DNA from: Candidatus Rokuibacteriota bacterium
Lineage (GTDB): Bacteria > Methylomirabilota > Methylomirabilia > Rokubacteriales > CSP1-6
Assembly: GCA_016184125.1 (NCBI GenBank)
Contig: JACPDG010000062.1
Location: 33,145 to 97,144 of the forward strand
Length of the DNA: 64,000 nucleotides
Direction of reading: 5' to 3'
The translations under genes and the position numbers were made by a program. Below the pieces are notes generated by a model. That model did not search any database, was not told the DNA's origin, and worked only from the letters and a program-made list of their open reading frames with translations. Shown here piece by piece: positions 26,762-61,857 of this stretch (positions are counted from its first letter, which is position 1; every line of letters begins with the position of its first letter).

Positions 26762-27044
26762 GGCGAATCGAGGAGCGCGACGGGTTCCGCGGGTGCGTCC
26801 TCGCACCCCCCGGGGCGCTCCGAGCGCCGGGGGGTATGGGGGGCCATTTCGGGGCCCCGGAGGGCGCAGCGTGTGCCCGAGGACGGCCGCGGCTGCGCCG
26901 CGGACGTGCCGAGCGCCGGGGGGTATGGGGGGCCATGTCGGGGCCCCGGAAGGGCGCAGCGTGTGCCCGAGGACGGCCGCGGCTGCGCCGCGGACGTGCC
27001 GAGCGTTGGGGGGTATGGGGGGCCATGTCGGGGCCCCCCATTCC
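26762..27044 (-). repeat. Intergenic multi-hairpin repeat, locus R1; tandem ~89/90-bp units
   Basis: gagcgccggggggtatggggggccatxtcggggcccc...gcggacgtgcc at 26822, 26911, partial at 27001; abuts the GNAT stop. Confidence 0.9.
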
Positions 27045-27542
27045 CTAGAGCAGCTTTTCCATCACAATCGTGTCGACCCACTGGCCGTCGAGCAGGCCCT
27101 GCTCCCTGTAGATCCCGACGGTCCGGAAGCCCATCCGCTCGTAGAGCCGCATGCCGGCCTCGTTGAACGGGAACGCGGACAGCACGAGCTTGTGGAAGCC
27201 GTGCTCGCGTCCGAGCTCGATCAGCCGCGCGAGCAGCACCCGCCCGGCGCCCTTGCCGCGGTACCCGCGCTCGATGTAGACGGAGAGGTCGGCGACGGAG
27301 CGGTAGGCCTCGCGGGCGTTGAAGACGTTCAGGCTGCCCCAGCCGACGACCTCGCCGCGCTCGTTCTCCGCGACGATCACCGGGTGTCGTGCGCTGCGGC
27401 TCGCCAGCCACTGCCGGCGCTCGCCGGCGGTGCGGAGCTCGGTCTCGAGCGTCGCGACGCGGTCCTCGATGCCCTGGTTGTAGACGAGCGCGATGGCGGC
27501 GGCGTCCTCCGGCGTGGCCGGCCGAACCGCGTACGAGGTCAT
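27045..27542 (-). CDS. GNAT family N-acetyltransferase
   Basis: SVYIERGYRGKGAGRVLLARLIELGREHGFHKLVLSAFPFNEAGMRLYERMGF. Confidence 0.92.
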   Translation of the reverse strand: MTSYAVRPATPEDAAAIALVYNQGIEDRVATLETELRTAGERRQWLASRSARHPVIVAENERGEVVGWGSLNVFNAREAYRSVADLSVYIERGYRGKGAGRVLLARLIELGREHGFHKLVLSAFPFNEAGMRLYERMGFRTVGIYREQGLLDGQWVDTIVMEKLL

Positions 27543-27646
27543 GGGCGGGACGATAGCACAGGGCCGTCATCGCTCGACGCTTCATGCGGCGGGGCTATAA
27601 TGCCCGCCATCGACCGCACGCCGTCACATCCGAAAGGAGATCCCGA

Positions 27647-28633
27647 ATGTCCTCGCCCCGCCGCCCCTTCGTCGTCCTCGCCGGACCGACCCACCCCGAC
27701 GGCCTGGCGCTGCTCGAAACCGAGGCGCGCGTGGTCGTGTGCGACGACGAGACCGAGGACGGATTCCTCGCGGTGGCGAAGGAGGCCGACGGCCTGCTGT
27801 TCCGCGTGCGGCCGCGCTCCACGGAGAGCCTCATGGCCGCGTGCGAGAACCTGAAGGTCGTCGGGCGTCACGGCGTCGGGCTGGACACGGTCGACATTCC
27901 GGCTGCCACGCGACTCGGTGTCGCGGTCGTCCACGCGCCCGGCTCCAACGCGCAGGCGGTCGCCGAGCACGCGCTGATGCTCATGCTGGCGTGCGTGAAG
28001 CGGACGCTCGAGGTCGACGAGCAGACGCGCAAGGGCGACTGGACCGCGCGCCGCGTCGGCAACACCGAGCTGGCCGGCAAGACGCTCGGCATCATCGGCG
28101 TCGGGAACATCGGTCGCCGCGTGGCGAAGTTCTGCGGCGCCGTCGGCATGCGCGTCCTCGGCTACGACCCGTACGTCGAGCCGGACGAGCTCGGGCGGCG
28201 CGGCGCGGAGCCCGTCGACACGCTCGAGGCGCTGCTGCGCGAGGCGGACGTGGTCACGTGCCACACGCCGCTCACGCACGAGACGCATCACATGATCAAC
28301 GACAAGACGATCGGGCTGATGAAGCCGGGCGTCATCTTCGTCAACACGTCGCGCGGGCCCGTGCAGGAGGAGCATGCGCTCTTCGAGGCGCTCGTGCGCG
28401 GCAAGGTCGCCGCCGCCGGGCTCGACGTGTGGGAGCAGGAGCCCGTGTCGGCGGACAACCCGATCCTCAACCTCCCGAACGTCGTGTGCTCCTCGCACGT
28501 CGCGGGCGTGACGCGCGAGGCCACGCGGAACACGTCGCTCCACGTGGTGAGCGAGATGATGCGCGTGCTGCGTGGCGAGCGGCCGCTCGTGCTCGTCAAC
28601 CCGGACGTCTGGCCCCGCCCCGTCACGAGGTAG
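27647..28633 (+). CDS. D-2-hydroxyacid/phosphoglycerate dehydrogenase family protein
   Basis: KTLGIIGVGNIGRRVAKFCGAVGMRVLGYDPYV; HTPLTHETHHMI. Confidence 0.92.
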   Translation: MSSPRRPFVVLAGPTHPDGLALLETEARVVVCDDETEDGFLAVAKEADGLLFRVRPRSTESLMAACENLKVVGRHGVGLDTVDIPAATRLGVAVVHAPGSNAQAVAEHALMLMLACVKRTLEVDEQTRKGDWTARRVGNTELAGKTLGIIGVGNIGRRVAKFCGAVGMRVLGYDPYVEPDELGRRGAEPVDTLEALLREADVVTCHTPLTHETHHMINDKTIGLMKPGVIFVNTSRGPVQEEHALFEALVRGKVAAAGLDVWEQEPVSADNPILNLPNVVCSSHVAGVTREATRNTSLHVVSEMMRVLRGERPLVLVNPDVWPRPVTR

Positions 28634-28642
28634 AATCGCCCC

Positions 28643-29431
28643 ATGCCGATCGACACACGCCATCCGAAGGACATCCGCAGCGACATCCGGGCGCAGAAGA
28701 TCACCGGCATCACGGCCGGTCTCGGCCAGGGCTTCGTGCAGGCGAACCTCGCGGTCCTGCCGAAGGACCATGCGTACGACTTCCTGCTCTTCTGCCAGCG
28801 CAACCCGAAGCCGTGCCCGCTGATCGAGGTGACCGACGTCGGTTCGCCGGTGCCGGCCGGCGTGGCGCCGGACGCCGATCTGAGAACCGACATCCCGAAG
28901 TACCGCATCTACAAGGACGGCGTGCTCGCCGACGAGGTCACCGACGCGACGCCGTACTGGCGCGACGACCTCGTCGCGTTCCTCCTCGGGTGCTCGTTCA
29001 CCTTCGAGTGGGCGATGCTCGAGGCCGGCGTGCGCCTGTGGCACATCGAGCACGGCAAGAACGTGGCGATGTGGAAGACGTCGATCGAGTGCCGGCCCGC
29101 CGGGGTGTTCCACGGGCCGACGGTCGTGTCGATGCGGCCGATCGCCGCGGCGGACGTCGCGAAGGCGGTCACGGCGAGCGCGCGCTTCCCGGCGACGCAC
29201 GGCACGCCGATCCACATCGGCGACCCGGCCGCGATCGGCATCGAGGACCTGAGCGCACCCGACTGGGGCGATGCGCCGGAGCTCCGGCCCGGCGACGTGC
29301 CGATGTTCTGGGCGTGCGGCGTGACTCCACAGGCCGTGGCGCTCGCGTCGAAGCCGCCATTCATGATCACGCACAGCCCCGGCCACATGTTCATCACGGA
29401 CGTGCCGAACGGGGCGCTCGCAGCGTTGTAG
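28643..29431 (+). CDS. DUF1445/YcsI-type putative hydro-lyase
   Basis: DIRAQKITGITAGLGQGFVQANLAVLPKDHAYDFLLFCQRNPKPCPLIEVTD; ITHSPGHMFITD. Confidence 0.9.
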   Translation: MPIDTRHPKDIRSDIRAQKITGITAGLGQGFVQANLAVLPKDHAYDFLLFCQRNPKPCPLIEVTDVGSPVPAGVAPDADLRTDIPKYRIYKDGVLADEVTDATPYWRDDLVAFLLGCSFTFEWAMLEAGVRLWHIEHGKNVAMWKTSIECRPAGVFHGPTVVSMRPIAAADVAKAVTASARFPATHGTPIHIGDPAAIGIEDLSAPDWGDAPELRPGDVPMFWACGVTPQAVALASKPPFMITHSPGHMFITDVPNGALAAL

Positions 29432-30150
29432 GGACACGGGCTCTGCGGTTCCGTCCGGCGGGCGACCTCGCCGTCTCGATCGAGCTCGGGGACGCGATCA
29501 GCCTCGGGCTCAACACCCGCGTGCGCGCGCTCGAGCACCTCATCCAGCAGAAGGGCGTCCCGGGCGTCGTCGAGATGGTGCCGTCGTACAGCGCGCTGCT
29601 CGTCTACTACGATCCGCTCGTCGTCGGCTACGACGCGCTCTGCGCGTCGGTCACCGCCGTGACGCGAGAGCTCGACACCGCCGTGCTCCCGCCCGCGCGC
29701 GTGGTCGAGCTCCCGTGCTGCTACGACGATCCGGAGCTCGCCTTCGACCTCGAGGCCGCGGCCGTGAAGCTCGGTCTCGAGCCGCCCGAGCTTGTCCGGC
29801 TCCACGCGGAGGCCACGTACCACGTGTACTTCATCGGGTTCACACCGGGCCTGCCGTACCTGATGCTGCCCGAGCGGCTGCGCATCCCGAGGCTCGACAC
29901 GCCGCGGACCGCGCTCCCGCCGGGCAGCGTCGGGCTCGGCGGGGGCCAGTGCTGCGTGTACTCCGTGGAGAGCCCCGGGGGCTTCTGGATCATCGGCCGC
30001 ACGCCGCTCCGGCTCTACGATCCCGAGGTGAGTGATCCCGTGCTGCTCCAGCCCGGCGACACGGTGCGCTTCCGGCCCATCGATCGCCGCACGTTCGGCG
30101 AGATCGCCGCCGCGGTCGCCGAGCACACGTACCGGCCGGTGATCACGTGA
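29431..30150 (+). CDS. pxpB: 5-oxoprolinase subunit PxpB (KipI-like); exact start codon uncertain
   Basis: HAEATYHVYFIGFTPGLPYLMLPERLRIPRLDTPRTALPPGSVGLGGGQCCVYSVESPGGFWIIGRTPLRLY. Confidence 0.88.
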   Translation, partial: GTRALRFRPAGDLAVSIELGDAISLGLNTRVRALEHLIQQKGVPGVVEMVPSYSALLVYYDPLVVGYDALCASVTAVTRELDTAVLPPARVVELPCCYDDPELAFDLEAAAVKLGLEPPELVRLHAEATYHVYFIGFTPGLPYLMLPERLRIPRLDTPRTALPPGSVGLGGGQCCVYSVESPGGFWIIGRTPLRLYDPEVSDPVLLQPGDTVRFRPIDRRTFGEIAAAVAEHTYRPVIT

Positions 30151-31106
30151 TCCGCGTGCTCGACGCGGGGCCGTTGCCGCTCACCACGGTGCAGGATCTC
30201 GGGCGCCCCGGACACCTCCGGTACGGCATCCCACCGTCCGGTCCCATGGACCGCCTCGCGTTCGTCGCCGCGAACCGCCTCGTCGGCAACGCCGACGGCG
30301 CTGCCGGCCTCGAGTGTGCGCTCGTCGGGCCGCGGTTGGAGGCCATGCGCCCGTGCGCCATCGCCGTGACGGGCGCGGACATGGCCCCGACGGTGAACGG
30401 TGAGCGGCGACCGCGCTGGACGGCGATCGCGCTGCGAGCCGGCGACCAGGTCCGGCTGGGCCCGGCGAAGGCGGGCATGCGGGCGTACGTCGCCTTCTCG
30501 GGCGGCATCGACGTGCCGCCCGTGCTGGGATCGCGCGCGACGTACATGCGCGGGCAGCTCGGCGGGCTCGAGGGGCGCGCGCTCCGCAAGGGGGATACCC
30601 TGCGCCTCTTCGACGCCCCGATACCGCCGGCGCGACGCGTCGTCGATCCTCCGGATGCGGATCCGGGCCTCGAGGTCACGGTGCGTGTCGTCCTCGGCCC
30701 CGAGGCGGACCGATTCACGGAGGCCGGGGTGAAGGCGTTCCTCACGGGCGCCTACGAGCTGCTCCAGCAGTCGGACCGCATGGGCGCGCGTCTCCGCGGG
30801 CCGCGGATCGCGCACGCGCGCGGGCACGACATCATCTCGAACGGTATCGCGCTCGGGACGGTGCAGGTGCCGGGCGACGGTCAGCCGATCGTCCTCCTCG
30901 TGGACCGCCAGTCCGCGGGCGGCTACACGAAGATCGCGACGGTCTGCTCCTTCGACATCGGCCGGCTCGCCCAGCAGAAGCCCGGCCGTCACGTCCGCTT
31001 CCAGGCCGTGGACGTCGCCGAGGCGCACCGGCTCCTGCACGAGCACCGCGCAGCGACGGACCGGCTCGTTCTGGAGACCATCGGACAACGAATGGAGAAG
31101 TCATGA
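30147..31106 (+). CDS. pxpC: 5-oxoprolinase subunit PxpC (KipA-like)
   Basis: TTVQDLGRPGHLRYGIPPSGPMDRLAFVAANRLVGN; GYTKIATV. Confidence 0.9.
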   Translation: MIRVLDAGPLPLTTVQDLGRPGHLRYGIPPSGPMDRLAFVAANRLVGNADGAAGLECALVGPRLEAMRPCAIAVTGADMAPTVNGERRPRWTAIALRAGDQVRLGPAKAGMRAYVAFSGGIDVPPVLGSRATYMRGQLGGLEGRALRKGDTLRLFDAPIPPARRVVDPPDADPGLEVTVRVVLGPEADRFTEAGVKAFLTGAYELLQQSDRMGARLRGPRIAHARGHDIISNGIALGTVQVPGDGQPIVLLVDRQSAGGYTKIATVCSFDIGRLAQQKPGRHVRFQAVDVAEAHRLLHEHRAATDRLVLETIGQRMEKS

Positions 31107-32278: not shown

Positions 32279-32280
32279 GT

Positions 32281-33063: not shown

Positions 33064-33110
33064 GAGCCTGTCGGGGTTACACGGTCAAGTAGACCCCGGA
33101 CACCCAGGTC

Positions 33111-33539: not shown

Positions 33540-33659
33540 AGTCTCCGTCCCAACCGCCGCATCACGCGGCTACCTCACTCGAGAGCAAACACAATGCCGG
33601 AATGCCCAGCGCCCGGTCGTCTTGACCGGCCCCGCACGGAGTGGTCTACTACATCGCCC

Positions 33660-34778: not shown

Positions 34779-34797
34779 TCTCTCGAGAGGGCCAGCC

Positions 34798-35190: not shown

Positions 35191-36533
35191 TGCGATACCT
35201 TCCCACGACCGACCGCGAGCGGCAGCAGATGCTCGCGACGATCGGAGCCGGCGGCATCGAGGATCTTCTCGTCCGCCTGCCCGCCAAGGCGCGTCTCGAT
35301 CGCCCGCTCGCCATCGGGCCCGCGGTCGCGGAGACCGACCTCGTGCGCGAGCTGCGCGCGATGGCGGGGAAGAACGCGGACGCGGACTCGCACGTCTGCT
35401 TCCTCGGCGCCGGCTCGTACGACCACTACGTGCCGAGCCCGATCAACCACCTCGTCCTCCGCGGCGAGTTCTTCACCGCCTACACCCCGTACCAGCCGGA
35501 GGCCAGCCAGGGGACGCTCCGCTCGATCTACGAGTACCAGACGATGATCGCCGAGCTCACCGGCATGGACGTGGCGAACGCGTCGATCTACGACGGTGCC
35601 TCGTCGCTCGCCGAGGCGGTGCTCATGTCGCGTGTCGCGACCGGTCGCGCGGAGGTCGTGCTCCCCGGCAGCCTCCACCCGCTCTACCGGCGCGCCGTCG
35701 CCTCGTACTGCCAGGGGATGGACCTGCGCCTGCGCGACGCGGCGGCGCCGGACGGCGTCGTCGATCCGGACGCGGTGCGGGGGCTGGTCACGGAGGCGAC
35801 GGCGGCGGTCGTCGTGCAGTCGCCGAACTTCTACGGCTGCCTGGAGGACGTCGCCGCGCTGTCCGAGATCGCGCACGCCGCCGGCGCGCTGTCGATCGTC
35901 GTCGCGGCGCCGGTGAACCTCGGCGTGCTCGAGGCGCCGGGACGGCAGGGCGCGGACATCGCGGTCGGCGAAGGGCAGGGGCTCGGGGTGCCGATGTCGT
36001 TCGGGGGCCCGAACCTCGGCGTCTTCGCGGCCACGCAGGCCCTGGTTCGCCGCATGCCCGGCCGGCTGGTCGGCGCGACGGTGGACCTCGACGGGCAGCG
36101 CGGCTTCGTGCTGACGCTGCAGGCGCGCGAGCAGCACATCCGCCGTGCGAAGGCGACGTCGAACATCTGCACGAACGTCGCCCTCAACGCGCTCATGGCC
36201 ACGATCTACCTCGCGATCCTCGGCAAGCAGGGGCTCAGGAAGGTCGGCGAGCTCTCGACGGCGAAGGCGCACTACGCGGCCGAGCGCCTCGCGGCGATCC
36301 CGGGCGTGTCGCTCCGGTTCGGCGCGCCGTTCTTCAAGGAGTTCGCGGTGCGGCTGCCGAAGTCGCCGGACCAGGTGGTGCGGAAGCTGCTGCGCGAGAA
36401 GATGCTCGCTGGCGTTCCGCTCGGCACGTTCGACCGGAACCTCCGTGACTGCCTGCTCGTGGCCGTGACGGAGACGCGCACGCGCGAGGAGATCGACCGC
36501 TTCGCGGCAGCGCTCGAGAAGGCGGTGGCGTGA
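35190..36533 (+). CDS. gcvPA: Glycine dehydrogenase (decarboxylating) subunit 1
   Basis: [50 protein letters not shown]. Confidence 0.96.
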
Positions 36534-38002
36534 TGATGGTGAAGCGGGCCGCGTACGACCGGCTGATCTTCGAGCTGTCGTCCCCGGGACGGATCGCGCA
36601 CTCGCTGCCCGAGTGCGACGTCCCGACGAGCGACCCGCGCGAGCTGCTGCCCGACAAGCAGCTGCGCTCCTCCCCGGCCGAGCTGCCGGAGGTCTCCGAG
36701 CTCGACGTCGTGCGTCACTACACGCGGCTGTCGCAGCTGAACTACGGCGTCGACACGCACTTCTACCCGCTCGGCTCGTGCACGATGAAGTACAACCCGA
36801 AGCTCAACGAGGACACGGCTCGCCTCGCCGGCTTCGCGCGCCTGCATCCGCTCGTCCCCGAGGCCGCGGCGCAGGGCGCGCTCCAGCTCATGCACGAGCT
36901 CGGCGCGATGCTGGGGGAGATCGCCGGCATGGACGCCGTGTCGCTCCAGCCCGCGGCCGGCGCGCAGGGCGAGCTCGCGGGCGTGCTGATGATCCGCGCC
37001 TATCACGCCTCGCGTGGCGAGCGACGGACGAAGGTGCTGATCCCCGACTCGGCGCACGGCACGAACCCCGCGTCGACCGCGATCGCCGGCTACGAGGTCG
37101 TCGAGGTGAAGTCGGACGCCGACGGCGGGGTGGACCTGCTCGACCTCGAGCGCCATCTGGCGGACGACGTCGCGGCGTTCATGATCACCGTGCCGAACAC
37201 GCTCGGCAACTTCGAGCCGCGCATCATGGAGATCACCGCGCTCTGCCGCAGCAAGGGCGTGCAGGTGTACATGGACGGCGCGAACCTCAACGCCATCCTC
37301 GGCATCACGCGGCCCGGCGACCTCGGCTTCGACGTCTGCCACTTCAACCTGCACAAGACGTTCACCACCCCGCACGGTGGCGGCGGCCCGGGCGCCGGAC
37401 CGGTCGGGGTGAAAGCGCACCTCGAGCCGTTCCTGCCGGTCCCCGTCGTGACGAAGAAGGGCGAGCGCTACACGCTCGACTGGAAGCGGCGGGCGTCGAT
37501 CGGCAAGCTCCAGGCGTTCTGGGGCAACTTCGCGATGCTCGTCCGCGCCTACACGTACATCAAGACGATGGGCGCCGACGGGCTCCGGCGCGTGTCGGAA
37601 GACGCGGTCCTCAACGCGAACTACGTCATGAAGCGCCTCGAGCGCGACTACGACCTGGGCGCGCCCGGGCCGTGCATGCACGAGTGCGTGCTGTCCGCGC
37701 GGCGCCAGAAGAAGCTCGGCGTGAATGCGATGGACGTGGCCAAGCGGCTGCTCGACCTCGGGTTCTACGCGCCGTCCACGTACTTCCCGATGATCGTCGA
37801 GGAAGCGCTCATGATCGAGCCGACCGAGACGGAGTCGAAGGAGACGCTCGACGCGTTCTGCGACGCGATGATCCAGATCGCCCGCGAGGCCGAGACCGAG
37901 TCGAAGATCGCCGCCGACGCGCCGATCACGACGCCGGTGCGGCGGCTCGACCAGACCAAGGCCGCGCGCGAGCCGGATCTGCGCTGGCGCCCGCGGGACT
38001 AG
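36530..38002 (+). CDS. gcvPB: Glycine dehydrogenase (decarboxylating) subunit 2
   Basis: [41 protein letters not shown]. Confidence 0.96.
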
Positions 38003-38008
38003 GGACGT

Positions 38009-38085
38009 GGGGGGCCCCGAAATGGCCCCCCACACCCCCCAACGCTCGGAGCGCCCCGGGGAACCCGTGGCGCTCCTCGATTCGC
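38009..38085 (+). repeat. Intergenic multi-hairpin repeat, locus R2
   Basis: ggggggccccgaaatggccccccacaccccccaacgctcggagcgccccggggaacccgtggcgctcctcgattcgc, 7 nt after the gcvPB stop. Confidence 0.9.
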
Positions 38086-39072: not shown

Positions 39073-39524
39073 CGCGCGAGTATCCTTCGCACCCGCGCGT
39101 CGGTGCCGGAGCCGTCGTGCTCCACGGCGGCCGCGTGCTGCTCGTCCGGCGCGGCGGTCAGCCGTCCCTCGGCAAGTGGACGCTGCCGGGCGGGCTCGTG
39201 GAACTCGGCGAGACGACGGCGGAGGCGGTGCGCCGGGAGCTCATGGAGGAGTGCGGCATCGACATCACGGTCGTCGGTCTGGCGGGCGTCGTCGACCGCG
39301 TCGTCCGGGACGCCGAGGGACGCGTCCGGTACCATTACGTGCTCGTGGACTATCTCGCGTCCACCGACACGGAGGAGGTCACGGCCGGCAGTGACGCCGC
39401 GGACGCGCGGTGGTTCGAGGTCGATCGTGTGCGCGAGCTCGACGTGACGGACGGGCTCGTGGACATGATCGAGCGAGCGATGGCCGTTGCCTCCGAGGGT
39501 GGCGGGCTTGGGGGGCATCGATAA
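39069..39524 (+). CDS. NUDIX hydrolase
   Basis: [24 protein letters not shown] Nudix box; stop codon lies inside repeat R3. Confidence 0.92.
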
Positions 39525-39639
39525 TCCCCCCATGAACGCCGAGCCCGTGAACGAATCCGGTCCTCGAGCCGCGCCCCGGGTTTCCCGGGGCGGGTGCGAA
39601 CGCCCGGGGGGTTTGGGGGGCATCGATAATCCCCCCATG
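39501..39639 (-). repeat. Intergenic multi-hairpin repeat, locus R3 (two core copies)
   Basis: ggggggcatcgataatccccccatgaa at 39510 and 39615; upstream of pepA. Confidence 0.9.
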
Positions 39640-42375: not shown

Positions 42376-42378
42376 GTC

Positions 42379-42535
42379 GCAGAGCGTCGCGGGGACCCGC
42401 GGCGCTCTGCAAGCGTCGGGGGGTGTGGGGGGCCATGTCGGGGCGTGGCCGGGCGTGAACCCGAGCCCCGGCCCGGGTTTCCCGGGCCGGGTGCGAGCGA
42501 TGGGGGGGTGTGGGGGGCCATGTCGGGGCCCCCCA
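42379..42535 (-). repeat. Intergenic multi-hairpin repeat, locus R4 (two core copies)
   Basis: ggggggtgtggggggccatgtcgggg twice; gcagagcgtcgcggg/cccgcggcgctctgc stem; abuts the pilB-like stop. Confidence 0.9.
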
Positions 42536-42540: not shown

Positions 42541-44247
42541 TCAGTCTGCGGTCACCCGCAAGACTTCGTCGAGCGTCGTGACGCCCTCGAGCGCCTTCGC
42601 GAGCCCGACCTCGCGCAGCGTGCGCATGCCCTGGTTGCGCGCGACCTGCCGGATCTCGCCTGCCGGTGCGCTCCCCATGATGAGGTCGCAGATCTCGGGG
42701 GTGACCGGCATCACCTCGTAGAGCGCGACGCGGCCCTTCATGCCGCTGAAGTGACAGCTCGAGCAGCCCTTCGCCGCGTAGAGGAGGGCGGTCCCGCCGC
42801 GGTCCGGCATGTACCCGTAGGCGGCGAGATGATCCTCCGGGATCTCGTAGGGCTGCCGGCAGTCGGCGCAAACCTTCCGCACGAGGCGCTGGGCCACGAC
42901 GAGCCTCAACGCGGACGAGATGAGAAACGGCGGAAGTCCCATGTCCAGGAGGCGCGCGATCGTGGCCGGGCAGTTGTTCGTGTGGAGCGTCGAGAGCACG
43001 AGGTGGCCGGTCAGCGCGGCGCGGACCGCCATGTGCGCGGTCTCGGTGTCGCGCATCTCGCCGACGAGGATGATGTTCGGATCGTGGCGCAGGAACGAGC
43101 GGAGCGCCGCCGCGAACGTGAGCCCGATCTCTTCCTTGACCTGCACCTGGTTGATGCCGCGCAGGTTGTACTCGACGGGGTCCTCGAGGGTGACGATGTG
43201 GACCTCGGGCGTGTTGAGCGTCTGGAGCGCCGAGTAGAGCGTGGTGGTCTTGCCGGAGCTCGTCGGTCCCGTGATCAGGATCACGCCGTTCGGGCTGCGG
43301 ACGGCCTGCTCGAACTGCGAGAGGGCCCACGGCTCCAGCCCCAGCTGCCCGAGGTCGAGCTTGAGCGCGTCCTTGTCGAGCAGCCGCAGCGCGACGCTCT
43401 CGCCGAAGACCGTCGGCAGGACCGAGACGCGAAAATCGACCTCGCGGCCGTTGTGCCGGAACTTGATGCGTCCGTCCTGCGGCAGCCGGCGCTCCGCGAT
43501 GTCCAGGCTGGCCATGATCTTGACGCGCGAGACGATCGCGGATTCGAGCCGCTTGGGAGACGTCATCAGCTCGGCGAGCATGCCGTCGGTGCGGATGCGG
43601 ACGCGCAGGCAGTTCTCCGCGGGATCCAGGTGCACGTCGGACGCGCCGCGCCGCACGGCCTCGTCGAGAACGAGGTTGACCAGGCGGACGACCGGCGCCT
43701 GGTCGGCCGACGCGCGCAGGTCCGCGGTGTCGTCGCCCGTCCGCGAGCGTTCCGTGTGCCTCGCCTCCGTCTCGGCGAGCGCGAGCACGTCCTGCAGGTA
43801 GTCGGTGCCGGGCTCGTAGCACTCCTCGATCTGCTTGCGGATCGCGGACGACGCCGCGAGCGCCGGCGCGACGCGCAGGCCCGTACGGAACGACACCTCG
43901 TCGAGCGCCGAGAGGTTCGTCGGGTCCGCCATCGCGAGCGTCAGCGACGCCGCGGCGCGGCTCACCGGGATGACGTCGTACTTCCGCGCGATCGCCGCGG
44001 GGACGAGCTTGAGGAGGTCGGGCGGGATCTGGTCCGGAATCTCGACGAGCGGAACGCGGTACTGACGGGAGAGGAACTGGAGCAGCTGCTCTTCGGTCAG
44101 GAGCCCGAGGCGCACGAGGACGGCGCCGAGCTTGTCGTCGGACCTGACCTGCTCGGCGACCGCCTGCCCGAGCTGCTCGGGCGTGACGATGCCCTCGGCC
44201 AGCAGCAGGTCGCCGAGTCGTCGGCCGAATTGTTGAGGCTCCCGCAT
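42541..44247 (-). CDS. Type II/IV pilus assembly ATPase (GspE/PilB) with N-terminal MshEN-like domain
   Basis: GPTSSGKTTTLYSAL, RHDPNIILVGEMRDTETAHMAVRAALTGHLVLSTLHTN, CxxC zinc motifs. Confidence 0.93.
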   Translation of the reverse strand: MREPQQFGRRLGDLLLAEGIVTPEQLGQAVAEQVRSDDKLGAVLVRLGLLTEEQLLQFLSRQYRVPLVEIPDQIPPDLLKLVPAAIARKYDVIPVSRAAASLTLAMADPTNLSALDEVSFRTGLRVAPALAASSAIRKQIEECYEPGTDYLQDVLALAETEARHTERSRTGDDTADLRASADQAPVVRLVNLVLDEAVRRGASDVHLDPAENCLRVRIRTDGMLAELMTSPKRLESAIVSRVKIMASLDIAERRLPQDGRIKFRHNGREVDFRVSVLPTVFGESVALRLLDKDALKLDLGQLGLEPWALSQFEQAVRSPNGVILITGPTSSGKTTTLYSALQTLNTPEVHIVTLEDPVEYNLRGINQVQVKEEIGLTFAAALRSFLRHDPNIILVGEMRDTETAHMAVRAALTGHLVLSTLHTNNCPATIARLLDMGLPPFLISSALRLVVAQRLVRKVCADCRQPYEIPEDHLAAYGYMPDRGGTALLYAAKGCSSCHFSGMKGRVALYEVMPVTPEICDLIMGSAPAGEIRQVARNQGMRTLREVGLAKALEGVTTLDEVLRVTAD

Positions 44248-44532
44248 CACGCCCTGGCGAGCGTTCGACGTGGCCTCATGACTCTCGAGCCTCAATGGAC
44301 CATCCTTTCGCTCTCACGGCTTCCGGCGCGGGCGCCCAGCACAATGCAAACCGAGCACCACGAGGTGTGACATGCCGAATTGCCTCGGCGTACGCCATTT
44401 CGCGCATTCACCGGCGGTCGGCCCGCGCGGGTGGACGAATGGTGACCGATCCCCGGGGGATGATTCCTGGCCGACGGAAAAGGGCTGACCGCGGAGGGGC
44501 GCCGCGATAGGCTGAGCGGGCGAGACGGGCGG

Positions 44533-45391: not shown

Positions 45392-46354
45392 TCAGCCGAG
45401 ATACGCCGGGAACACCCGGCGGATCACCTCCGGCGCGTTGACGGACAGCAATCCATTCACCAGGCGGCGCGCGGCCCCTCGCACGGCGACGAACACGATG
45501 CGGCCCGTGGCGACGACGTTGCCATGATCCTCGGGCGCGGCCGCGCGCCCCTCGAACAGGCGCACCTCGGTCGCCAGGTAGCGGGAGTCGTCAGGCGCCG
45601 GGACGACATGCGCGCGCTCTCCGATGACCGTCAGCGGCCGTCCGAATGCGGGTCGTCGCGCCAGCGAGACGTCGAGGACGGTCGTCATTCCCGACTCGCC
45701 GGTCGCGAGCGCACCGAGCCAGAACGCGGCCTCGTCGAGCAGCGAGGTGACCGCGGCGACCGCGAGCGATCCGTCCGAGCGCCCGAATGCCGGGCGCGGG
45801 TGCCAGGTGCCGCGTACGGAGCGCTCGTCGAAGCGGAGCTGCGCCCGGAGCCCGAGGCCGTTGTCCACGCCGCAGACGAAGCACGTCGACGAGACGGGCA
45901 GTGGCTGATCCGACATCATGGGGGGCCCCGAAATGGCCCCCCAAACCCCCCAGCGCTCGGAGCCGTCCCGGGGAACCCGGGACGGCCCTCGATGACCGGA
46001 TTCGTTCACGCGTTCTGCCGGCACGGGCGGCGTCGGACCGTTCCACCCCGTCACGCGCCCGTCGACCAGCAGGGCACCCGACGCGTCCAGCAGTCGACAC
46101 GCGACGCCATCCGTGGCCGGCGTGACGGCGAGGCGGAGCGGCGCCCCGAGGGGGACGCGCTTGACGTAGTGGCCCACGATGTGTCCGTGTCCGGCGTCGC
46201 CGGCCGCAGCATCGAAGAGCGCGAGCACGGTGCCGCCATGCGCCATGCCCGGCAAGCCCTGGAACGCGGGCGGCAGCGTCACGGAACGGTCGTCGCCGTC
46301 GCCGCCACCGAGCGCGTTCCGGAAGACGTCATCGACGCGGGTCGCGTCGCTCAC
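45392..46354 (-). CDS. Two hotdog (PaaI-like thioesterase) domains in a single ORF, joined by repeat-derived sequence; may be two genes (second alone 45392-45916)
   Basis: Domain 1 VTLPPAFQGLPGMAHGGTVLALFDAAAG; linker NESGHRGPSRVPRDGSERWGVWGAISGPPM; domain 2 MSDQPLPVSSTCFVCGVDNGLGLRAQL; GTG start 46354. Confidence 0.7.
   Translation of the reverse strand: MSDATRVDDVFRNALGGGDGDDRSVTLPPAFQGLPGMAHGGTVLALFDAAAGDAGHGHIVGHYVKRVPLGAPLRLAVTPATDGVACRLLDASGALLVDGRVTGWNGPTPPVPAERVNESGHRGPSRVPRDGSERWGVWGAISGPPMMSDQPLPVSSTCFVCGVDNGLGLRAQLRFDERSVRGTWHPRPAFGRSDGSLAVAAVTSLLDEAAFWLGALATGESGMTTVLDVSLARRPAFGRPLTVIGERAHVVPAPDDSRYLATEVRLFEGRAAAPEDHGNVVATGRIVFVAVRGAARRLVNGLLSVNAPEVIRRVFPAYLG
45920..46009 (+). repeat. 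Multi-hairpin repeat, locus R5, inside the thioesterase ORF
   Basis: ggggggccccgaaatggccccccaaaccccccagcgctcggagccgtcccggggaacccgggacggccctcga. Confidence 0.9.
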
Positions 46355-46385: not shown

Positions 46386-46519
46386 GGTCGAGGCGGGCCC
46401 CGGCTTTGTCGGGTGCGTCCCCGCACCCCCCGGGGCTCGCCGAGCGCCGGGGCCGGGGGAGCACGAGGGGGGCGTGAGCCCCTTCGTACCAGTGTCGGGG
46501 GCTTCGGGAGTCCCCCCAT
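46386..46519 (-). repeat. Multi-hairpin repeat, locus R6, between divergent genes
   Basis: gggtgcgtccccgcaccccccgggg...gggggcttcgggagtccccccatgac. Confidence 0.85.
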
Positions 46520-54576: not shown

Positions 54577-56600
54577 TCAGCGGACACGGCGGACGTCGAG
54601 CCAGGTCGACTGGTACGTCGCGCCGGCGCCGAGATCGCTGAGCCGGTCGGAGCAGAGCACGTTGGCGCTGGCGCGTGATGGCCTGCTCGGACGCTGGCCG
54701 GGGACCAGCGCCACGCCGGGGGCGACCTCGTCGCTCACCTGGAGCGCGAATCGGACGCTCCCGCGATCGTTCACGAGCTCGACCGGGTCGCCGTCCGCGA
54801 GCCCGCGCCGCTCCGCCTCGGCCGGGTGCAGCACGCAGACCGGTGTGCCCTCGCGCGCGTCGAGGGTGCGGTTCGTCGCGAAGACGGTGTGACTGACGAA
54901 GTAGCCGGGCGCCGAGAGCAGCCTCAGCGGCCAGCGCCGCGCCTCGTCGCCGTCGTCCAGCTCGGGCCGCCAGTCGGGCATCGGCGGCAGGCCCTGGGCG
55001 GCGAGCTGCGCGGACCAGAACTCGAGCGTGCCCGACGGGGTCGCGAAGCGCTGCCCGTCCGGATACGGTCGTGCCTTGATCGGCCCCGCCGTCCGGAGCG
55101 TCGCCGGGTCCACGCCCGCCGCCGGGCCGGTGGCGCCGCGGAAGAACAGCGGCAAGAGCTCGTCGGTCGACATCGAGAAGACCGGATGGTCGACGGCGAG
55201 GCGTCGCGCGAGCTCGCGCGCGAGCTCCGCGTTGGCCCACGCCTGCCCGCGCGGCTCGATGACGCGCGGGCCGAACTGCATGTAGTAGGCGCCGTACGAG
55301 CGGTAGAAGTCCTCGGTCTCGAGATACGTGGCTGCGGGCAGCACGATGTCGGCCCATCGTGCGGTGTCGGAGACGGTCAGGTCGTGCACGACCGTGAACA
55401 GGTCCTCCCGCGCGAGGCCGCGACGCACCGCGTCGGCGTCGGGACACGTCACGACGGGGTTGTTGCTCGCCACGAACAGCGCCCGGATCGGTGGATCGGC
55501 GAGCGCGAGCAGCGCTTCGCCCAGTCGCGAGTGGTTGACCGTCCGGGTCGTCTCCGGGCCGGCCGGACGGCGGATGAGGTCGTAGCGCAGCCCGAACCCG
55601 GGAACCGTGATCATGAGGGCGCCGCCGCCGCGCCGGGCATAGGCGCCGGTCACACCGGGCAGGAGCGCGACCGCCCGGATCGCCTGGCCACCCTGCGCGC
55701 AGCGCGACATGCCCGTGCCGATGCGAATGAACGGCGCGTGCGCGCGTCCGTAGTGGTGCGCGAGGCGCTCCACGTCGGCGCGCGCGACGCCGGTGACACG
55801 CTCCACCTGATCGGGCGCGAAGCGCGGTAGGACGTCCGCCGCGAGACGATCGAAGCCCGTCGTCTCGCGCGCGAGGTATTCGCGGTCCGCAAGGCCGTCG
55901 CGCGCGAGCACGTGCATGAGCCCGAGCGCGAGCGCCGCGTCGGTGCCGACGCGCGGCGTGACGTGCCAGTCGGCCTGCGCCGCCGTGCGACTGCGCCGGG
56001 GATCGATCACCACGAGCTGCGCGCCCCGGCGGCGCGCCTCCTCGACCTTCGCCCACAGGTGGACGTTCGTCGTGACGAGGTCGGCGCTCCACGCGATCAC
56101 GAGGTCCGAGTGCACGACGTCCTCGGGATCCGCGCCGCCGACCGGCCCGCACGTCATCTCCCACGCGGTGTCCGCGCACGAGTCGCACACGGTGCCCGCC
56201 TGCAGCCGCGTCGTGCCGAGGGCGTGGAAGAGCGCCATCGGCAGCCACCGGTTGATCTGGCCCTGGTGCGCGCTGTAGCAGTAGCCGAGGATCGCGAGCG
56301 GACCGTCCTCGCGGACGATCGCGCGCCAGCGGTCCACGATCTCGTCGAGCGCCGCGTCCCACCCGATGGGCGTGAACGTTCCCGTCCCCTTGGCCCCCGT
56401 GCGCCGGAGCGGTGTGAGCAACCGATCGGGTGAATAGACGAGCTCGGGCTCGCGGTTCACCTTCGCGCACGCGAATCCCGCGGTGAGCGGCTGGTCGGGA
56501 TCGCCCTGGATGCGGGCGAGGCGGCCGTCCTCGACGTGCGCCAGGAGCGAGCACATGTCGGGGCAGTCGTGAGCACAGACGGTACGGATGACCGTCGTGG
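54577..56600 (-). CDS. Molybdopterin-dependent oxidoreductase (formate dehydrogenase-like); start uncertain
   Basis: VCAHDCPDMCSLLAHVEDGRLARIQGDPDQPLTAGFACAKV (Cys cluster), MoCo-binding and C-terminal molydopterin dinucleotide domain. Confidence 0.9.
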
Positions 56601-56601
56601 G

Positions 56602-56757
56602 TGGTCGAGGAGCGCCCCGGCTTTGTCGGGTGCGTCCGCGCACCACGGGTGCGTCCGCGCACCCCCCCCGGGGCGCTCCGAGCGCGGGGCCGGGGGAGTA
56701 CGAGGGGGGCGTGAGCCCCCTTCGTCCGAGTGTCGGGGGCATCTATAGTCCCCCCAT
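56602..56757 (-). repeat. Multi-hairpin repeat, locus R7
   Basis: ggggcgctccgagcgcggggccgggggagtacgaggggggcgtgagcccccttcg...gggggcatctatagtcccccc. Confidence 0.88.
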
Positions 56758-57378
56758 CACTTCGGTCGGGCGTCCGAGCGTCCACTCGAGCGCATCCGCG
56801 GCCCTCGCGTCGTTCGGCCGGCCGCGGCGCCTGAGCTCGGTGATGATCGCGCGGCGAGCCGCCTCGGGGCGGTTCTGCCCGAGCTTGAACTTGGGACGGC
56901 ACCGCACCACGGTGAGCCGGACGCCGACCAGGAGCGCGAGCCGGCCACGGTACACCGGATCATCGGCCGCGACCGGCCGGTGACCGCCCTCAGGCTGGTA
57001 GCGGGCCAGCAGCCGCTGTTGCTGCGCCGCGAGCACGTCGGCGTCGTGGATCACCTCGCCGCGGCACTCGAGGATCACCGTCCGGTGGTACGCGGTCGCG
57101 GCGCCACCGTACTGCGCGTGGACCCAGTACGACGGGATCGTGCCGAGGATCTCGTCGAGCTCGAACACGCACCGAGGCCGGGCGCGGAGGTCGGTCACCT
57201 GCTCGTCCTCGCGGACCAGGTGCAGCTCCACGGTGTCGCCGTCGTGCACGAAGGGGTAGAGGCCCACGTGCGGAGTGCCGTCGTCGCAGACCGTCACGAG
57301 CCGGCCCATCTCCTGGCTTGCCACGAAGCGGTCGATCTCGGCGCGGTCGATGCCGCTGTAGACCTCGTGGAAGATCAC
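56743..57378 (-). CDS. Pyridoxamine 5'-phosphate oxidase-like FMN-binding (FMN-dependent negative regulator-like) protein
   Basis: MGRLVTVCDDGTPHVGLYPFVHDGDTVELHLVREDEQVTDLRARPRCVFELDE; ends RPTEVMGGL* within repeat R7. Confidence 0.75.
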   Translation of the reverse strand: MIFHEVYSGIDRAEIDRFVASQEMGRLVTVCDDGTPHVGLYPFVHDGDTVELHLVREDEQVTDLRARPRCVFELDEILGTIPSYWVHAQYGGAATAYHRTVILECRGEVIHDADVLAAQQQRLLARYQPEGGHRPVAADDPVYRGRLALLVGVRLTVVRCRPKFKLGQNRPEAARRAIITELRRRGRPNDARAADALEWTLGRPTEVMGGL

Positions 57379-57399
57379 GGCGCGTCCTCCTTTTGGATT

Positions 57400-57555
57400 G
57401 GGGGGACTATCGATGCCCCCCAAGCCCCCCGCGCTCGGAGCGCCCCGGCACAGCCGTGGCGCTCCTCGACCACCGATCGATGCCCCCCAAGCCCCCCGCG
57501 CTCGGAGCGCCCCGTGGTGCGCGGACGCACCCGGGGGACCCGGGCCGCGGCTCGA
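57400..57555 (+). repeat. Multi-hairpin repeat, locus R8 (two stem units), in divergent intergenic region
   Basis: ggggggactatcgatgccccccaagccccccgcgctcggagcgccccgg...gtggcgctcctcgaccaccgatcgatgccccccaagccccccgcgctcggagcgcccc. Confidence 0.9.
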
Positions 57556-57647
57556 TGTCGGAGTCGTTCCCGGCCCTGAGATCGTCGCCGCTCGGGTGGT
57601 TCCAGTAAAGAGCCGCTTCTCGAGAAATCCATGGTACCAATTCACCG

Positions 57648-59114
57648 ATGCTCCTCCGCCTGGACGGTGACGGCGCGCTCGGACAGCGGATCTACGGTGC
57701 GCTCCGCCGTGCGATCCTCGCCGGCGAGCTCAGGCCCGCGTCCCGCTTGCCGGCGACGCGCACGCTCGCGCGCGAGCTCGGCGTGTCGCGCAACACCGTC
57801 CTCGGCGCGTACGACCAGCTGCTCGCCGAGGGATACGCGAGCGGCCGGCGCGGGTCGGGGACGTACGTGGCCACCGCGCTGCCCGATCCACTCCTGCGGC
57901 CGGCGCCTCGTCCGGCGCAGCGGGTGGGCGTCCGCGTGCCGCGGCTCTCCGCGTACGGTCGGCGCGTTGCGCGCGCATCGGCCATTCCCCCGCTGGGCGG
58001 CGCCGAGCCGTCGCTGCGCTGGGACTTCCGGTACGGTATCCCAGCGGTGGCCGATGTGGCCCAGGGCGCGTGGCGCCGCGTGCTCGCACGCCGTGCGCGG
58101 ATCGCCTCGCTCCCCACGATGACCTACGGTCCGCCCGAAGGGTCGCCCGCGCTCCGCGAGGCGCTCGCGGACTACCTGCGCCGCGCTCGCGGCCTAGCGT
58201 GCGATCCCGGGCAGATCGTGATCGTGAACGGCTCGCAGCAGGCGATCGACCTCGCCGCGCGCGTGCTGCTCGACGCCGGCGATCGCGTCGCCATCGAGGA
58301 GCCGCAGTACCAGGGCGCGCGCCGGATCTTCCTCGCGGCCGGTGCGAGGCTCGACCTGGTGCGCGTCGATGGCGAGGGGTTCGACGTCGCGCGGGTGCCC
58401 GCGCGCGGCGTCCGGCTCGCGTACGTCACGCCCTCGCACCAGTTCCCGACCGGCGTCGTGATGTCGCTCGGGCGCCGGCTCGCGCTCCTCGAGTGGGCGT
58501 GGCGCGCCGGCGCGATCGTGCTCGAGGACGACTACGACAGCGAGTTCCGGTACGAGGGCCGGCCGATCGAGGCGCTCGCGGCGCTCGACGGCGCCGCGCG
58601 GGTCGTGTACGCGGGGACGCTCTCGAAGGTCCTGTTCCCCGCGCTGCGCATCGGGTACGTCGTGCTGCCACAGCCTCTGGTTGCGGCGTTCCGGGCCGCG
58701 AAGTGGCTGACCGACCGACACACGCCGACCCTCGAGCAAGAGGCGCTCGCCGCGTTCATCGCCGAGGGGCACTTCGAGCGACACCTCAGGCGGTCGCGCA
58801 CGCGGCACGCCGAGCGCCGCGCCGCCGTGCTGGAGGCCCTGCGCGTGCACCTCGGGGACGGCGTCGACGTTGTCGGCGCCAACGCCGGGGTGCACGTGCT
58901 CGCCTGGCTGCGCCACGTTGCCGCCGCCGGGCTGCCTCGGCTCGTCGCGCGGGCGGCCGAGGCCGGCGTCGGCGTCTACCCGGTCGCGCCGTATTACTCG
59001 CGACCGCCGGCGCGTGCGGGGCTGCTGCTCGGGTACGCCTCGCTCACCGATCGGCAGATCCACGAGGGCATCCGCCGCCTCGCGGAGGTGGTGCGCGCTC
59101 GGCTCACGGGCTAG
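57648..59114 (+). CDS. MocR-type GntR/aminotransferase transcriptional regulator
   Basis: ILAGELRPASRLPATRTLARELGVSRNTVLGAYDQLLAEGY wHTH + PLP aminotransferase fold (EDDYDSEFRYEGRPIEAL, YAGTLSKVLFPALRIGY). Confidence 0.93.
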   Translation: MLLRLDGDGALGQRIYGALRRAILAGELRPASRLPATRTLARELGVSRNTVLGAYDQLLAEGYASGRRGSGTYVATALPDPLLRPAPRPAQRVGVRVPRLSAYGRRVARASAIPPLGGAEPSLRWDFRYGIPAVADVAQGAWRRVLARRARIASLPTMTYGPPEGSPALREALADYLRRARGLACDPGQIVIVNGSQQAIDLAARVLLDAGDRVAIEEPQYQGARRIFLAAGARLDLVRVDGEGFDVARVPARGVRLAYVTPSHQFPTGVVMSLGRRLALLEWAWRAGAIVLEDDYDSEFRYEGRPIEALAALDGAARVVYAGTLSKVLFPALRIGYVVLPQPLVAAFRAAKWLTDRHTPTLEQEALAAFIAEGHFERHLRRSRTRHAERRAAVLEALRVHLGDGVDVVGANAGVHVLAWLRHVAAAGLPRLVARAAEAGVGVYPVAPYYSRPPARAGLLLGYASLTDRQIHEGIRRLAEVVRARLTG

Positions 59115-60076
59115 GTCAGCAGCCCGATCTCGCGGTACCGCGGCTCCACCCGCGACGAGATCAGCTCGAGCCGCTGCAGCCGCGGGATCAGCACCTCGGT
59201 GAAGAGCATCCGGTTGAACGTCTTCGCGGTCTGCGAGTTCGCGATCGTGTCGCGCCAGATCTCCTCGCCGTCCCAGCCCATCTCCTCCCACACGTGCTTG
59301 ATGGACTGGAACCCCGTGCGCTCGTCGCGGCCGTACATGAGGTCGCACGCCTTGAACGCGAAGTCCTCGAGCATCTCCCGCTTGTCCGGCGCCATGTCGG
59401 GGATCGACCGCCGGAGCGCGAAGTACCCGAAGTTGACGTGCCGGCCCTCGTCCTGGAGCACGTAGTCGAGCACGGACGCGAGCGTCGGGTCGGCCGTCTG
59501 CCTGCGCATCACGTTGAAGGCCGCGATCGCGAGCCCTTCGATGATCATCTGCATGCCGAGCAGCTTCAGCTCCCAGAGCGGCGTCGCGAGGATCTCGTCG
59601 ATCAGCGCCTTGAGCAGCGGGTCGACCGGGTAGATCTTCAGCAGCTTCTTCACGTACCGCTCGTACACCTCGACGTGCCGGCCCTCGTCGACGACCTGCG
59701 TCGAGGCGTAGAGCTTCGCGTCCAGCTCCGGCACGGAGTTCACGAGCTGCCCGCAGACCAGCAGCGCGCCCTGCTCGCCGTGGAGGAACTGCGACAGTCG
59801 CCACGCGCTCACGCGGACCTCGACCTCCTTCTGCTCCTCCGAGGTCAGGCGCGAGAAGAAGCTCGTGCCGGAGAACGCCGACGGCACGTTGAGCACCGGC
59901 CCTTCCTTGCCGATGGGCCGGCTCCAGTCGATCGCGGTGGAGGCGTTCCACTGGTTCTTCTTCGCGGTCTCGTAGAGCGACTCGAGCTCGTGGTGCGTCG
60001 GCTCGTAGTCGTAGTCCCAGAGCGTCTCGAGCTGGTAGGAGATCCGGCGGGCGGCGGTCGCGGCAGTGGTCGTCAT
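59111..60076 (-). CDS. Diiron ferritin-like oxygenase family protein
   Basis: Two ExxH-like carboxylate motifs VVDEGRHVEVYERY and VLQDEGRHVNFGYFAL; helical. Confidence 0.75.
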   Translation of the reverse strand: MTTTAATAARRISYQLETLWDYDYEPTHHELESLYETAKKNQWNASTAIDWSRPIGKEGPVLNVPSAFSGTSFFSRLTSEEQKEVEVRVSAWRLSQFLHGEQGALLVCGQLVNSVPELDAKLYASTQVVDEGRHVEVYERYVKKLLKIYPVDPLLKALIDEILATPLWELKLLGMQMIIEGLAIAAFNVMRRQTADPTLASVLDYVLQDEGRHVNFGYFALRRSIPDMAPDKREMLEDFAFKACDLMYGRDERTGFQSIKHVWEEMGWDGEEIWRDTIANSQTAKTFNRMLFTEVLIPRLQRLELISSRVEPRYREIGLLT

Positions 60077-60213
60077 CCGTCACCTCGGAATGCTCGGAAT
60101 GAATGGCGGTTCAGGGGCGTCATTCTAGCGCGAATAGTTCAGATGTCCCGCCGAACGCCTCAGGCGATCAGCGCCGGTTGTCGGTGTCGCGCGGGCTCCC
60201 GGGCTCGGGTACC

Positions 60214-60921
60214 ATGCCGCTGATGAACGACAGCGCGATCTTCGTCAAGCAGATGGAACTCGGGCCGATGCAGAACTTCGTGTACCTCGTCGGTGATCCG
60301 GTCGCCCGGGAGTGCGTGGTCGTCGACCCGGCCTGGGAGATCGACACGATCATCGAGACCGCCCAGGCGAACGACATGCGGATCACGGGCGCGCTCGTCA
60401 CGCACACGCACCAGGACCACGTCGGCGGCAGTCTCGAATCGTGGGGCATGCCGGGGCGCATCCCGGGGGTCGAGGAACTGCTCGAGCGCGTGCCCGCCAA
60501 GGTCTACGTGCACAAGGCGGAGCGCGAGTTCCTGCGGGGATTCGGGTCGGACCTCGTGAAGGTGGACAACCACGACACGGTCCAGGTGGGCCGGCTCACG
60601 ATCGAGTTCCTCCACACGCCGGGCCACACGCCGGGGTCGCAGTGCTTCCTCGTGGACGGACGGCTCGTCTCCGGCGACACCCTGTTCATCGGCGCCTGCG
60701 GGCGTACGGATCTGCCCGGCAGCGATCCGTCGGAGATGTACTACTCGCTGACGCAGCGACTCGCGGCACTGCCTGACGACACCGTGCTGCTGCCCGGACA
60801 CAACTACGGCGGCAGCAACTCCACGATCGGCGCGGAGAAGCGGCAGAACCCGTTCATGCGGTTCGCGTCGCTCGGGGACTTCCTCCGCGTCATGGGCGGC
60901 ACCCGCATCGTCCTCCCCTAG
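60214..60921 (+). CDS. MBL-fold metallohydrolase (glyoxalase II-like)
   Basis: THTHQDHVGG, HTPGHTPGSQCFL, SGDTLFIGACGRTDLPGSDP. Confidence 0.93.
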   Translation: MPLMNDSAIFVKQMELGPMQNFVYLVGDPVARECVVVDPAWEIDTIIETAQANDMRITGALVTHTHQDHVGGSLESWGMPGRIPGVEELLERVPAKVYVHKAEREFLRGFGSDLVKVDNHDTVQVGRLTIEFLHTPGHTPGSQCFLVDGRLVSGDTLFIGACGRTDLPGSDPSEMYYSLTQRLAALPDDTVLLPGHNYGGSNSTIGAEKRQNPFMRFASLGDFLRVMGGTRIVLP

Positions 60922-60924
60922 TGT

Positions 60925-61012
60925 GGGGGGCCCCGAAATCCCCCCCAACGCTCGGAGCGCCCCGGGGGGTGCGAGGACGCACCCGCGGAACCCGTGGCGC
61001 TCCTCGATTCGC
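60925..61012 (+). repeat. Multi-hairpin repeat, locus R9
   Basis: ggggggccccgaaatcccccccaacgctcggagcgccccggggggtgcgaggacgcacccgcggaacccgtggcgctcctcgattcgcc, just after MBL stop. Confidence 0.9.
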
Positions 61013-61031
61013 CGTTCCCCGTCGCCCCGAC

Positions 61032-61706
61032 CTAGCGCGGCGAGATCCAGGCCAGACCGTAGAGGAGTCGGTAGAAATCGGCTTCCACTCCGGCGCCGAG
61101 TGACCCCATCCGGGAGTCCCAGAACTCTCTCAGCGCGCCCTCGCGTGACGCATCGCCGACCTCCACGATCGCGACGAATGGCGTCGCGCCGAGCGCGTGC
61201 TCGCCCACGATCCGCCGTTCCTCGGTCACGGCCGAGGCCGCCTGGGTCTCGGTCTCACAGAGCCCGAAGCCCGTCACGCCCGGGATGCCGCTGAGGCTGC
61301 GGCTGGCCTCGCCCACGAGCCAGTCGCGAAGGGCAGGCTCTCCCCCTGGAGCCGGAGTGATGCGTGCAGTGCACACGTGGCGCTCGGGGGCGTCACCTGT
61401 CGTCGCGAGCATCCGGTAGATGCCGCGCATCATGCGGCGAAAGCTCGGGAGCGCCCGCCGGCTCCAGTCCGTCGGATTGTTCAGGCGCTCGATGTAGGCC
61501 TGGCTGGCGAGCACCCCGGCGTCCGCCGTCTCGTAGAGCGTGAAGTAGCGTGGCCCTCGGTCAGTCGCCTCGTAGCGCCGGCCACGCAGGAACCCGGGCA
61601 CCGACAGGCGCTCGGGCAGATGCTGGCGCGGATACCAGCGGTTCACCTCGTCCTCGCCCGCCGGGTCGACGTCGAACCAGATCGCGAGCGCCGCGTGACC
61701 GATCAT
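61032..61706 (-). CDS. Hypothetical protein, possible ferredoxin-like/EthD-type dimeric alpha-beta barrel
   Basis: IWFDVDPAGEDEVNRWYPRQHLPERLSVPGFLRGRRYEATDRGPRYFTLYE. Confidence 0.6.
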   Translation of the reverse strand: MIGHAALAIWFDVDPAGEDEVNRWYPRQHLPERLSVPGFLRGRRYEATDRGPRYFTLYETADAGVLASQAYIERLNNPTDWSRRALPSFRRMMRGIYRMLATTGDAPERHVCTARITPAPGGEPALRDWLVGEASRSLSGIPGVTGFGLCETETQAASAVTEERRIVGEHALGATPFVAIVEVGDASREGALREFWDSRMGSLGAGVEADFYRLLYGLAWISPR

Positions 61707-61780
61707 ACGACCTCCTTTGACGAAGGTGGGGGCTCGAGGCCCCGCCCGAGGGCACTCAACAGGTCGTGAATGAATCGCGG

Positions 61781-61857
61781 TGGTCGAGACAGGCCCGGGT
61801 TCACCCCGGGCCCGTCGAACGTTGGGGGGGCTTGGGGGGCATCGGTAGTCCCCCCAT
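61781..61857 (-). repeat. Multi-hairpin repeat, locus R10, overlapping the SDR 3' end
   Basis: aggcccgggttcaccccgggcccgtcgaacgttgggggggcttggggggcatcggtagtccccccatga. Confidence 0.85.

Follow-up and report, generated by a model that had tools for sequence, protein, structure and literature searches.

What are the ten non-coding, hairpin-rich loci that lie between positions 26762 and 61857 of a 64,000-nucleotide stretch of a Candidatus Rokuibacteriota genome, and how did they come to be there? The stretch (hereafter the window) corresponds to C53:33145-97144 of the host draft G000 (4.09 Mb, 121 contigs). Nearly all of the nearest relatives of a conserved window protein are entries of Candidatus Rokuibacteriota, which GTDB places in Methylomirabilota, and the host is accordingly a member of that candidate phylum. 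The loci, named R1 to R10 and built around hairpins with G6/C6 arms, had been predicted from the DNA letters to form one family, either of mobile repeats or of RNA structures, and all ten were present with the claimed architecture. We consider it probable that they are copies of a mobile palindromic element that is non-autonomous, specific to one Rokubacteria family and present in high copy number, and that resembles repetitive extragenic palindromic (REP) sequences or miniature inverted-repeat transposable elements (MITEs). Mobility, a spread limited to that family, structural constraint and a stop-codon-linked preference for YTRR tetranucleotides are each shown here through sequence comparison. 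The hairpin repeat behaves like a REP or a MITE and is classed as neither.

Read on its canonical strand, the unit consists of a left flank (TCAGAGCCCGTGAACGAATCGGG in subtype II; TAGGAGC.TGTCGGAG in subtype I), CGAG, hairpin 1, CGAGCG, a lone G6 run, 1-4 nt and the core hairpin, followed by A(T/C)G... Hairpin 1 has variable arms of 10-13 bp and a loop of mostly 3 nt. The core hairpin takes one of two forms, GGGGGGCC-ATNTCGG-GGCCCCCC or GGGGGGC-WTCGATAG-TCCCCCC, and ends in CCCCCCA. Some copies carry a third hairpin (TACGAGGGGGGCGTGAGCCCCCTTCGTA), placed between G run and core. With regard to the predicted G-quadruplex potential, each unit has two or three G runs, and single-strand folding yields G6/C6 hairpins. 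A covariance model of the unit placed every strong window match inside the predicted loci (E 4e-15 to 1e-3) and none in the first 26 kb, where no copy had been obvious; the weak scores of R6 and R7 are due to their third hairpin. An Rfam scan of the window returned a tRNA at 7299-7372 as its sole match, and with no Rfam family above the gathering threshold, the repeat is indeed without a named family there. The literature searched (most subscription journals lay outside the search) yielded no account of a Rokubacteria repeat of this kind.

The family is far from confined to the window. The core matched 408 times in the host genome (191 + 217, at most 2 mismatches), compared to 0 for a reversed-pattern control. 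A looser search with both core types over 1.167 Mb of the host found 277 cores in 202 clusters (237 per Mb), which extrapolates to ~1000 copies per host genome. Since just 2 of 227 inter-copy distances exceeded 26 kb, the repeat-free 26-kb part of the window is unusual for this host. Single units made up 143 of the 202 clusters and arrays of 2-4 the rest; among the multi-copy clusters (n=59), 53 had one orientation and 6 were mixed. Both orientations were mixed in every contig, with no sign of the strand polarity that replication-coupled single-strand insertion would be expected to leave. Across the GTDB family of the host, core counts ranged from 0 to 453, with 54, 408 and 453 in the host's genus; G016, G018 and G020 are examples of copy-free members. 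The exact core was found in 0 of 38 genomes of the phylum's other families. The covariance model, with at most 150 matches counted per genome, gave one strong match in a neighbouring family (G026, E 8.6e-9) and no strong match in three genomes from other families of the class. Viral contigs held no core match, and plasmids no match by BLAST with one copy as the query. In another genome, G009, the covariance model found 45 units where the core pattern matched once; these units and the G026 match appear to be diverged subfamilies past the reach of the core pattern.

Evidence that the units move came from syntenic sites, compared across Rokubacteria contigs that are ~77% identical (DNA) over the same genes. 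R3 (39501-39639, plus strand; 139 bp), made up of a solo core at 39510-39532 and a complete unit at 39564-39638, is missing in several relatives, and the remaining spacing is equal within 3 nt (29/26, 57/54, 63/60 and 66/63). The site of R5 (45919-45992, minus strand), a single unit with GGGCCGTCCC/GGGACGGC arms and a covariance model E of 4e-15, is likewise empty in three relatives (spacing 64/65, 124/121 and 144/141). In the gap that holds R2 (38008-38080, minus strand), a single subtype I unit with a CTAG boundary and an E of 1.3e-13, two relatives have a unit or array of their own in the opposite orientation, so that this gap was filled independently. The window and the congener G001 have no copy in common, and the syntenic block of G001 holds two copies that the window lacks. 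Moreover, for 76 of the 277 copies a counterpart with 95% identity or more exists elsewhere. Empty sites, unshared copies and near-identical distant copies together lead us to conclude that units move or are copied to new sites and that copies are both gained and lost. On contig C51 of G001 (the reverse complement of L178-L182), a unit at ~25727 immediately precedes a TATAAT -10-like box, which the window has as well, at ~27.6 kb; the -35 region of a divergent promoter may have been displaced by this copy.

The units do not settle evenly between genes. Among 164 clusters so placed, 124 lay in tandem, 30 in convergent and 10 in divergent junctions, with 132.7, 15.7 and 15.6 expected by junction count and 109.9, 23.6 and 30.6 by intergenic length; convergent junctions are thus enriched (30 vs 15.7, junction count) and divergent ones depleted (10 vs 30.6, intergenic length). 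Orientation in tandem gaps showed no significant bias (67:53). About 81 of 207 array-terminal right ends lay 1-15 nt past the stop of an opposite-strand gene, with a sharp mode at 6 nt. In the window, R1 (26762-27044, plus strand), an array of three head-to-tail units with cores at 26838, 26927 and 27017, comes within 5 nt, at its right end, of the TAG that closes the minus-strand gene 27045-27542, and R2 lies 6 nt past the TAG of gene 36530-38002. The right end of R4 (42377-42535, plus strand), two head-to-tail units at 42377-42445 (with differing arms, GCAGAGCG/CGCTCTGC) and 42461-42535, lies 6 nt away from the stop codon that ends gene 42541-44295 on the minus strand. R9 (60924-61012, minus strand), whose core is shortened and whose loop carries one inserted hairpin, begins 2-3 nt past the TAG of gene 60214-60921. 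Comparison with homologues showed that the stops beside R1, R2 and R9 are native.

The bases around these stops are not random. A pyrimidine (C or T) preceded the stop in 66 of the 81 cases, compared to 342 of 922 genes overall (p ~7e-15), a bias beyond selection for mere position behind genes, and the insertion target or boundary is therefore YTRR-like. Boundary tetranucleotides (n=90) included CTGA 39 times, CTAG 14, TTGA 11 and GTAG 3. The tetranucleotide lies 5-6 nt from the G6 hairpin and varies by subfamily: ends of the GGA..T type occurred with CTAG in 8 of 10 cases, those of the ..TCAT type with CTAG in 2 of 26 and with CTGA/TTGA in 16 of 26 (Fisher, TAG vs other stops, p 0.007). For comparison, a non-autonomous element derived from IS200/IS605 would be expected to insert 3' of a fixed tetranucleotide beside a subterminal hairpin. 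Left flanks bear matching tetranucleotides, TCAG in subtype II and TAG in subtype I. A short YTRR-like tetranucleotide thus marks each end of the unit, being CTGA/TCAG in one subfamily and CTAG in another.

The fold of the unit had been singled out as well. Among 36 distinct units, 94.8% of 671 cells were paired and in 9 pairs both partners had changed (66 cells altogether), with a covariation score of 0.257, compared to 0.059 ± 0.010 when shuffled and at most 0.079 when partners were slid. Nearly all of the covariation lies in hairpin 1 (8 of 11 pairs), the G6/C6 core being almost invariant. The 39 distinct arm pairs were 94% paired, compared to 74 ± 1.7% with arms shuffled, and the fold stability z was mostly -3 to -4.5. 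In the aligned copies, then, covariation shows a fold that is maintained, and it fits RNA function, DNA-hairpin recognition or palindrome template switching alike. The claim that the arms vary with pairing kept was borne out, and selection on structure, which this pattern had been taken to suggest, is one of the readings that fit. Template switching is a known mutational process of quasipalindromes. The covariation would in that case stem from one arm being copied onto the other during replication and not from selection, an explanation that suits the variable arms and their lack of an apparent site-specific function. A near-loop mismatch nevertheless persists (columns 13-26 unpaired in 7 of 36), so correction is incomplete. 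We regard template switching as possible, though on the doubtful side, and it is compatible with a mobile element.

How might a mobile element of this kind spread? We propose that an enzyme acting in trans would recognise the folded hairpins, as single-stranded DNA or as a cruciform, and would join the unit next to a YTRR tetranucleotide. Insertions inside genes would be removed by selection, leaving those in which the YTRR doubles as the stop codon and the unit stands where the intergenic spacer begins. Loop-inserted hairpin modules and head-to-tail arrays would be secondary developments. A bolder version, which we offer tentatively and with considerable doubt, is that these are hairpin DNA elements moved by an enzyme of a not-yet-recognised class (not RAYT, the REP-associated tyrosine transposase), that the few bases separating the terminal hairpin from the end serve as a kind of guide (GGANNT with CTAG, NNTCAT with CTGA/TTGA), and that stop codons are natural landing sites.

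Known enzymes offer other routes. The repeat could be a MITE of a DDE transposon that targets CTAG or TA (e.g. IS5- or IS630-like) and whose autonomous parent is rare or lost. The ends of subtype I are similar (CTAGGAGC.. / rc CTAGGGACGTG, rc denoting the reverse complement), some copies have CTAG on both sides, and DDE_Tnp_1 (PF01609) genes are present in G000, G001, G019 and G059. DDE_Tnp_1 does not track copy number, however: the copy-rich G017 and G044 lack it, and it is most frequent in G016 and G020, which have no copies. The commonest boundary, TCAG, contains no TA, target-site duplication was not convincing, and no long copy with an internal gene or transposase was recognised among 104 left ends. 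We therefore think a DDE origin unlikely.

Still less probable is a standard REP family driven by RAYT (TnpA-REP), with the transposase gene missing because repeat-flanked genes assemble or bin badly. The placement behind genes is as in GTAG and CGTC REPs (PMC3733652), and the CTGA and CTAG boundaries contain CT, the dinucleotide that TnpA-REP cuts near the hairpin (PMC8266576). Yet the co-resident RAYT that the original prediction had proposed to look for did not appear: model NF047646 matched 0 of 12 copy-bearing drafts (90-98% complete), with a positive E. coli control. Y1_Tnp (PF01797) had no match in G001, G017 or G019, and its sole match in G000 is a degraded IS200-type Y1 remnant (C45:3887-4069, L031) in a chimeric reading frame. 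GTAG occurs at 3 of the 90 boundaries, and inverted pairs are few. It is possible that a mover gene was missed in all drafts, which would need repeated missing. Least probable is a host-functional 3'-untranslated-region RNA or terminator family with structure selected at gene ends, which would account for the strong covariation, the stable folds, the position behind stop codons and the depletion at divergent promoters, but whose copies are not conserved at orthologous positions, point either way at near-random proportions, number from 54 to 453 within one genus and, unlike an intrinsic terminator, carry a U-tract (T-rich in the DNA) in only 2 of 277 copies on either strand. The alternative half of the original prediction, 3'-untranslated-region RNA structures with G-quadruplex potential, thus finds no support as the leading account. 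Any effect of the repeat on mRNA 3' ends would, we infer, be a by-product.

Several points weigh against a mobile element that targets stop codons. First, turnover was inferred from genomes ~77% identical and not from movement seen in real time. Second, gene calls came from a home-made caller. Third, left and right flanks shared 4-mers in 42 cases vs 33 expected under shuffled pairing (p 0.012), with p 0.13 at k=5, a marginal excess that does not demonstrate a target-site duplication. Lastly, profile searches with PF01797, NF047646 and PF01609 found no mobilising enzyme, and none of these families tracks copy number.

Compared with described repeats, the mobile palindromic element is REP-like with an unlike layout and without RAYT, and it is not a REP or bacterial interspersed mosaic element (BIME) in the strict sense. 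REPs typically follow genes at a short distance, in tandem and convergent gaps (PMC3733652), and GTAG REPs are recognised by the GTAG tag, a RAYT that goes with them and units paired in inverted orientation (PMC3733652, PMC8266576). Like GTAG REPs, BIMEs and REPINs, the Rokubacteria units are short, high-copy, imperfect intergenic palindromes, mostly behind genes (tandem, convergent), with a family-specific spread. Unlike them, the unit has no GTAG tag (CGA(G) precedes stem 1), occurs in copy-rich genomes with no RAYT, clusters head-to-tail (53 vs 6) and not as inverted pairs, and combines two different hairpins with a lone G6 run and YTRR-like boundaries. The half of the original prediction that pointed to a REP/BIME- or MITE-like mobile element is supported: copies number in the hundreds, syntenic relatives have sites without them, and their placement behind genes is REP-like. 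CGTC REPs, which have a CGTC (TGTC/CCTC) tag, an 8-9 bp stem opening with A-T pairs, a CCA tail and head-to-head dimers (PMC3733652), resemble the unit in having no dedicated transposase and in lying no more than 20 bp from the 3' ends of genes (Di Nocera et al. 2013, PMC3733652); the unit differs in having no CGTC tag, longer G+C-rich stems (10-13 bp) and no head-to-head dimers. With bacterial MITEs (Correia, Nezha, ERIC-like) it shares a non-coding, structured, dispersed nature, a length of ~75-160 bp and the capacity to extend or end reading frames, but no long terminal inverted repeats were seen (the subtype I ends share a short likeness), no target duplication was convincing and no parent transposon turned up. 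Mitochondrial double-hairpin elements, yeast GC clusters and sponge repetitive hairpin elements are reportedly also small mobile GC-rich double hairpins, and those are in organellar genomes (PMC4478555, PMC2800124).

The window holds 14 cores in all. R1 has three copies, and R3, R4 and R8 have two each (one partial or degraded). In R6 (46386-46519, plus strand; core at 46496), a GGGTGCGTCCCCGCACCC hairpin is inserted in the loop, and a third hairpin (CACGAGGGGGGCGTGAGCCCC..) separates the G run from the core; R7 (56602-56757, plus strand; core at 56734) is similar, with two loop-inserted hairpins. R8 (57398-57555, minus strand) joins a complete unit at 57398-57469 to a partial unit reaching 57555, and R10 (61781-61857, plus strand) has GACAGGCCCGGG/CCCGGGCCCGTC arms and a 5-nt loop. 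The loop of hairpin 1 in R1, R6, R7, R8, R9 and many genomic copies contains one or two tandem GGGTGCGTCCGCGCACCC mini-hairpins, a nested module with copy-number changes of its own. The gene upstream of R3 (39117-39524) continues into the solo core, which supplies its stop codon and the new C-terminus ..GGGLGGHR; units can therefore alter C-termini (coding capture).

Two one-gene segments, 56592-57597 and 60921-61891, are bracketed by oppositely oriented copies (R7-R8 and R9-R10), and both are missing at the syntenic place in G001 (77 and 288 bp there). At both, the repeats may have brought in a gene, either by carrying it or by recombination through them. The bracketed genes were considered as transposases and rejected: 56743-57378 is pyridoxamine-oxidase/FMN-binding-like, 61032-61706 has no Pfam match, and the two are mutually unrelated. 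Within the repeat-free 26-kb part, a weakly coding stretch at 7400-18100 beside the tRNA gene looks like a genomic island; it holds a homeodomain-like fragment (7679-8146) and encodes a protein with an AbiEi-type antitoxin domain (16265-17341).

For those who annotate Rokubacteria genomes, the repeat carries a warning, as gene ends, starts and C-termini can consist of repeat sequence. REP-type bacterial repeats are usually put down to RAYT transposases; here, turnover and a stop-codon preference were found without RAYT. The family is thus a concrete system in which to seek another route of palindrome spread.

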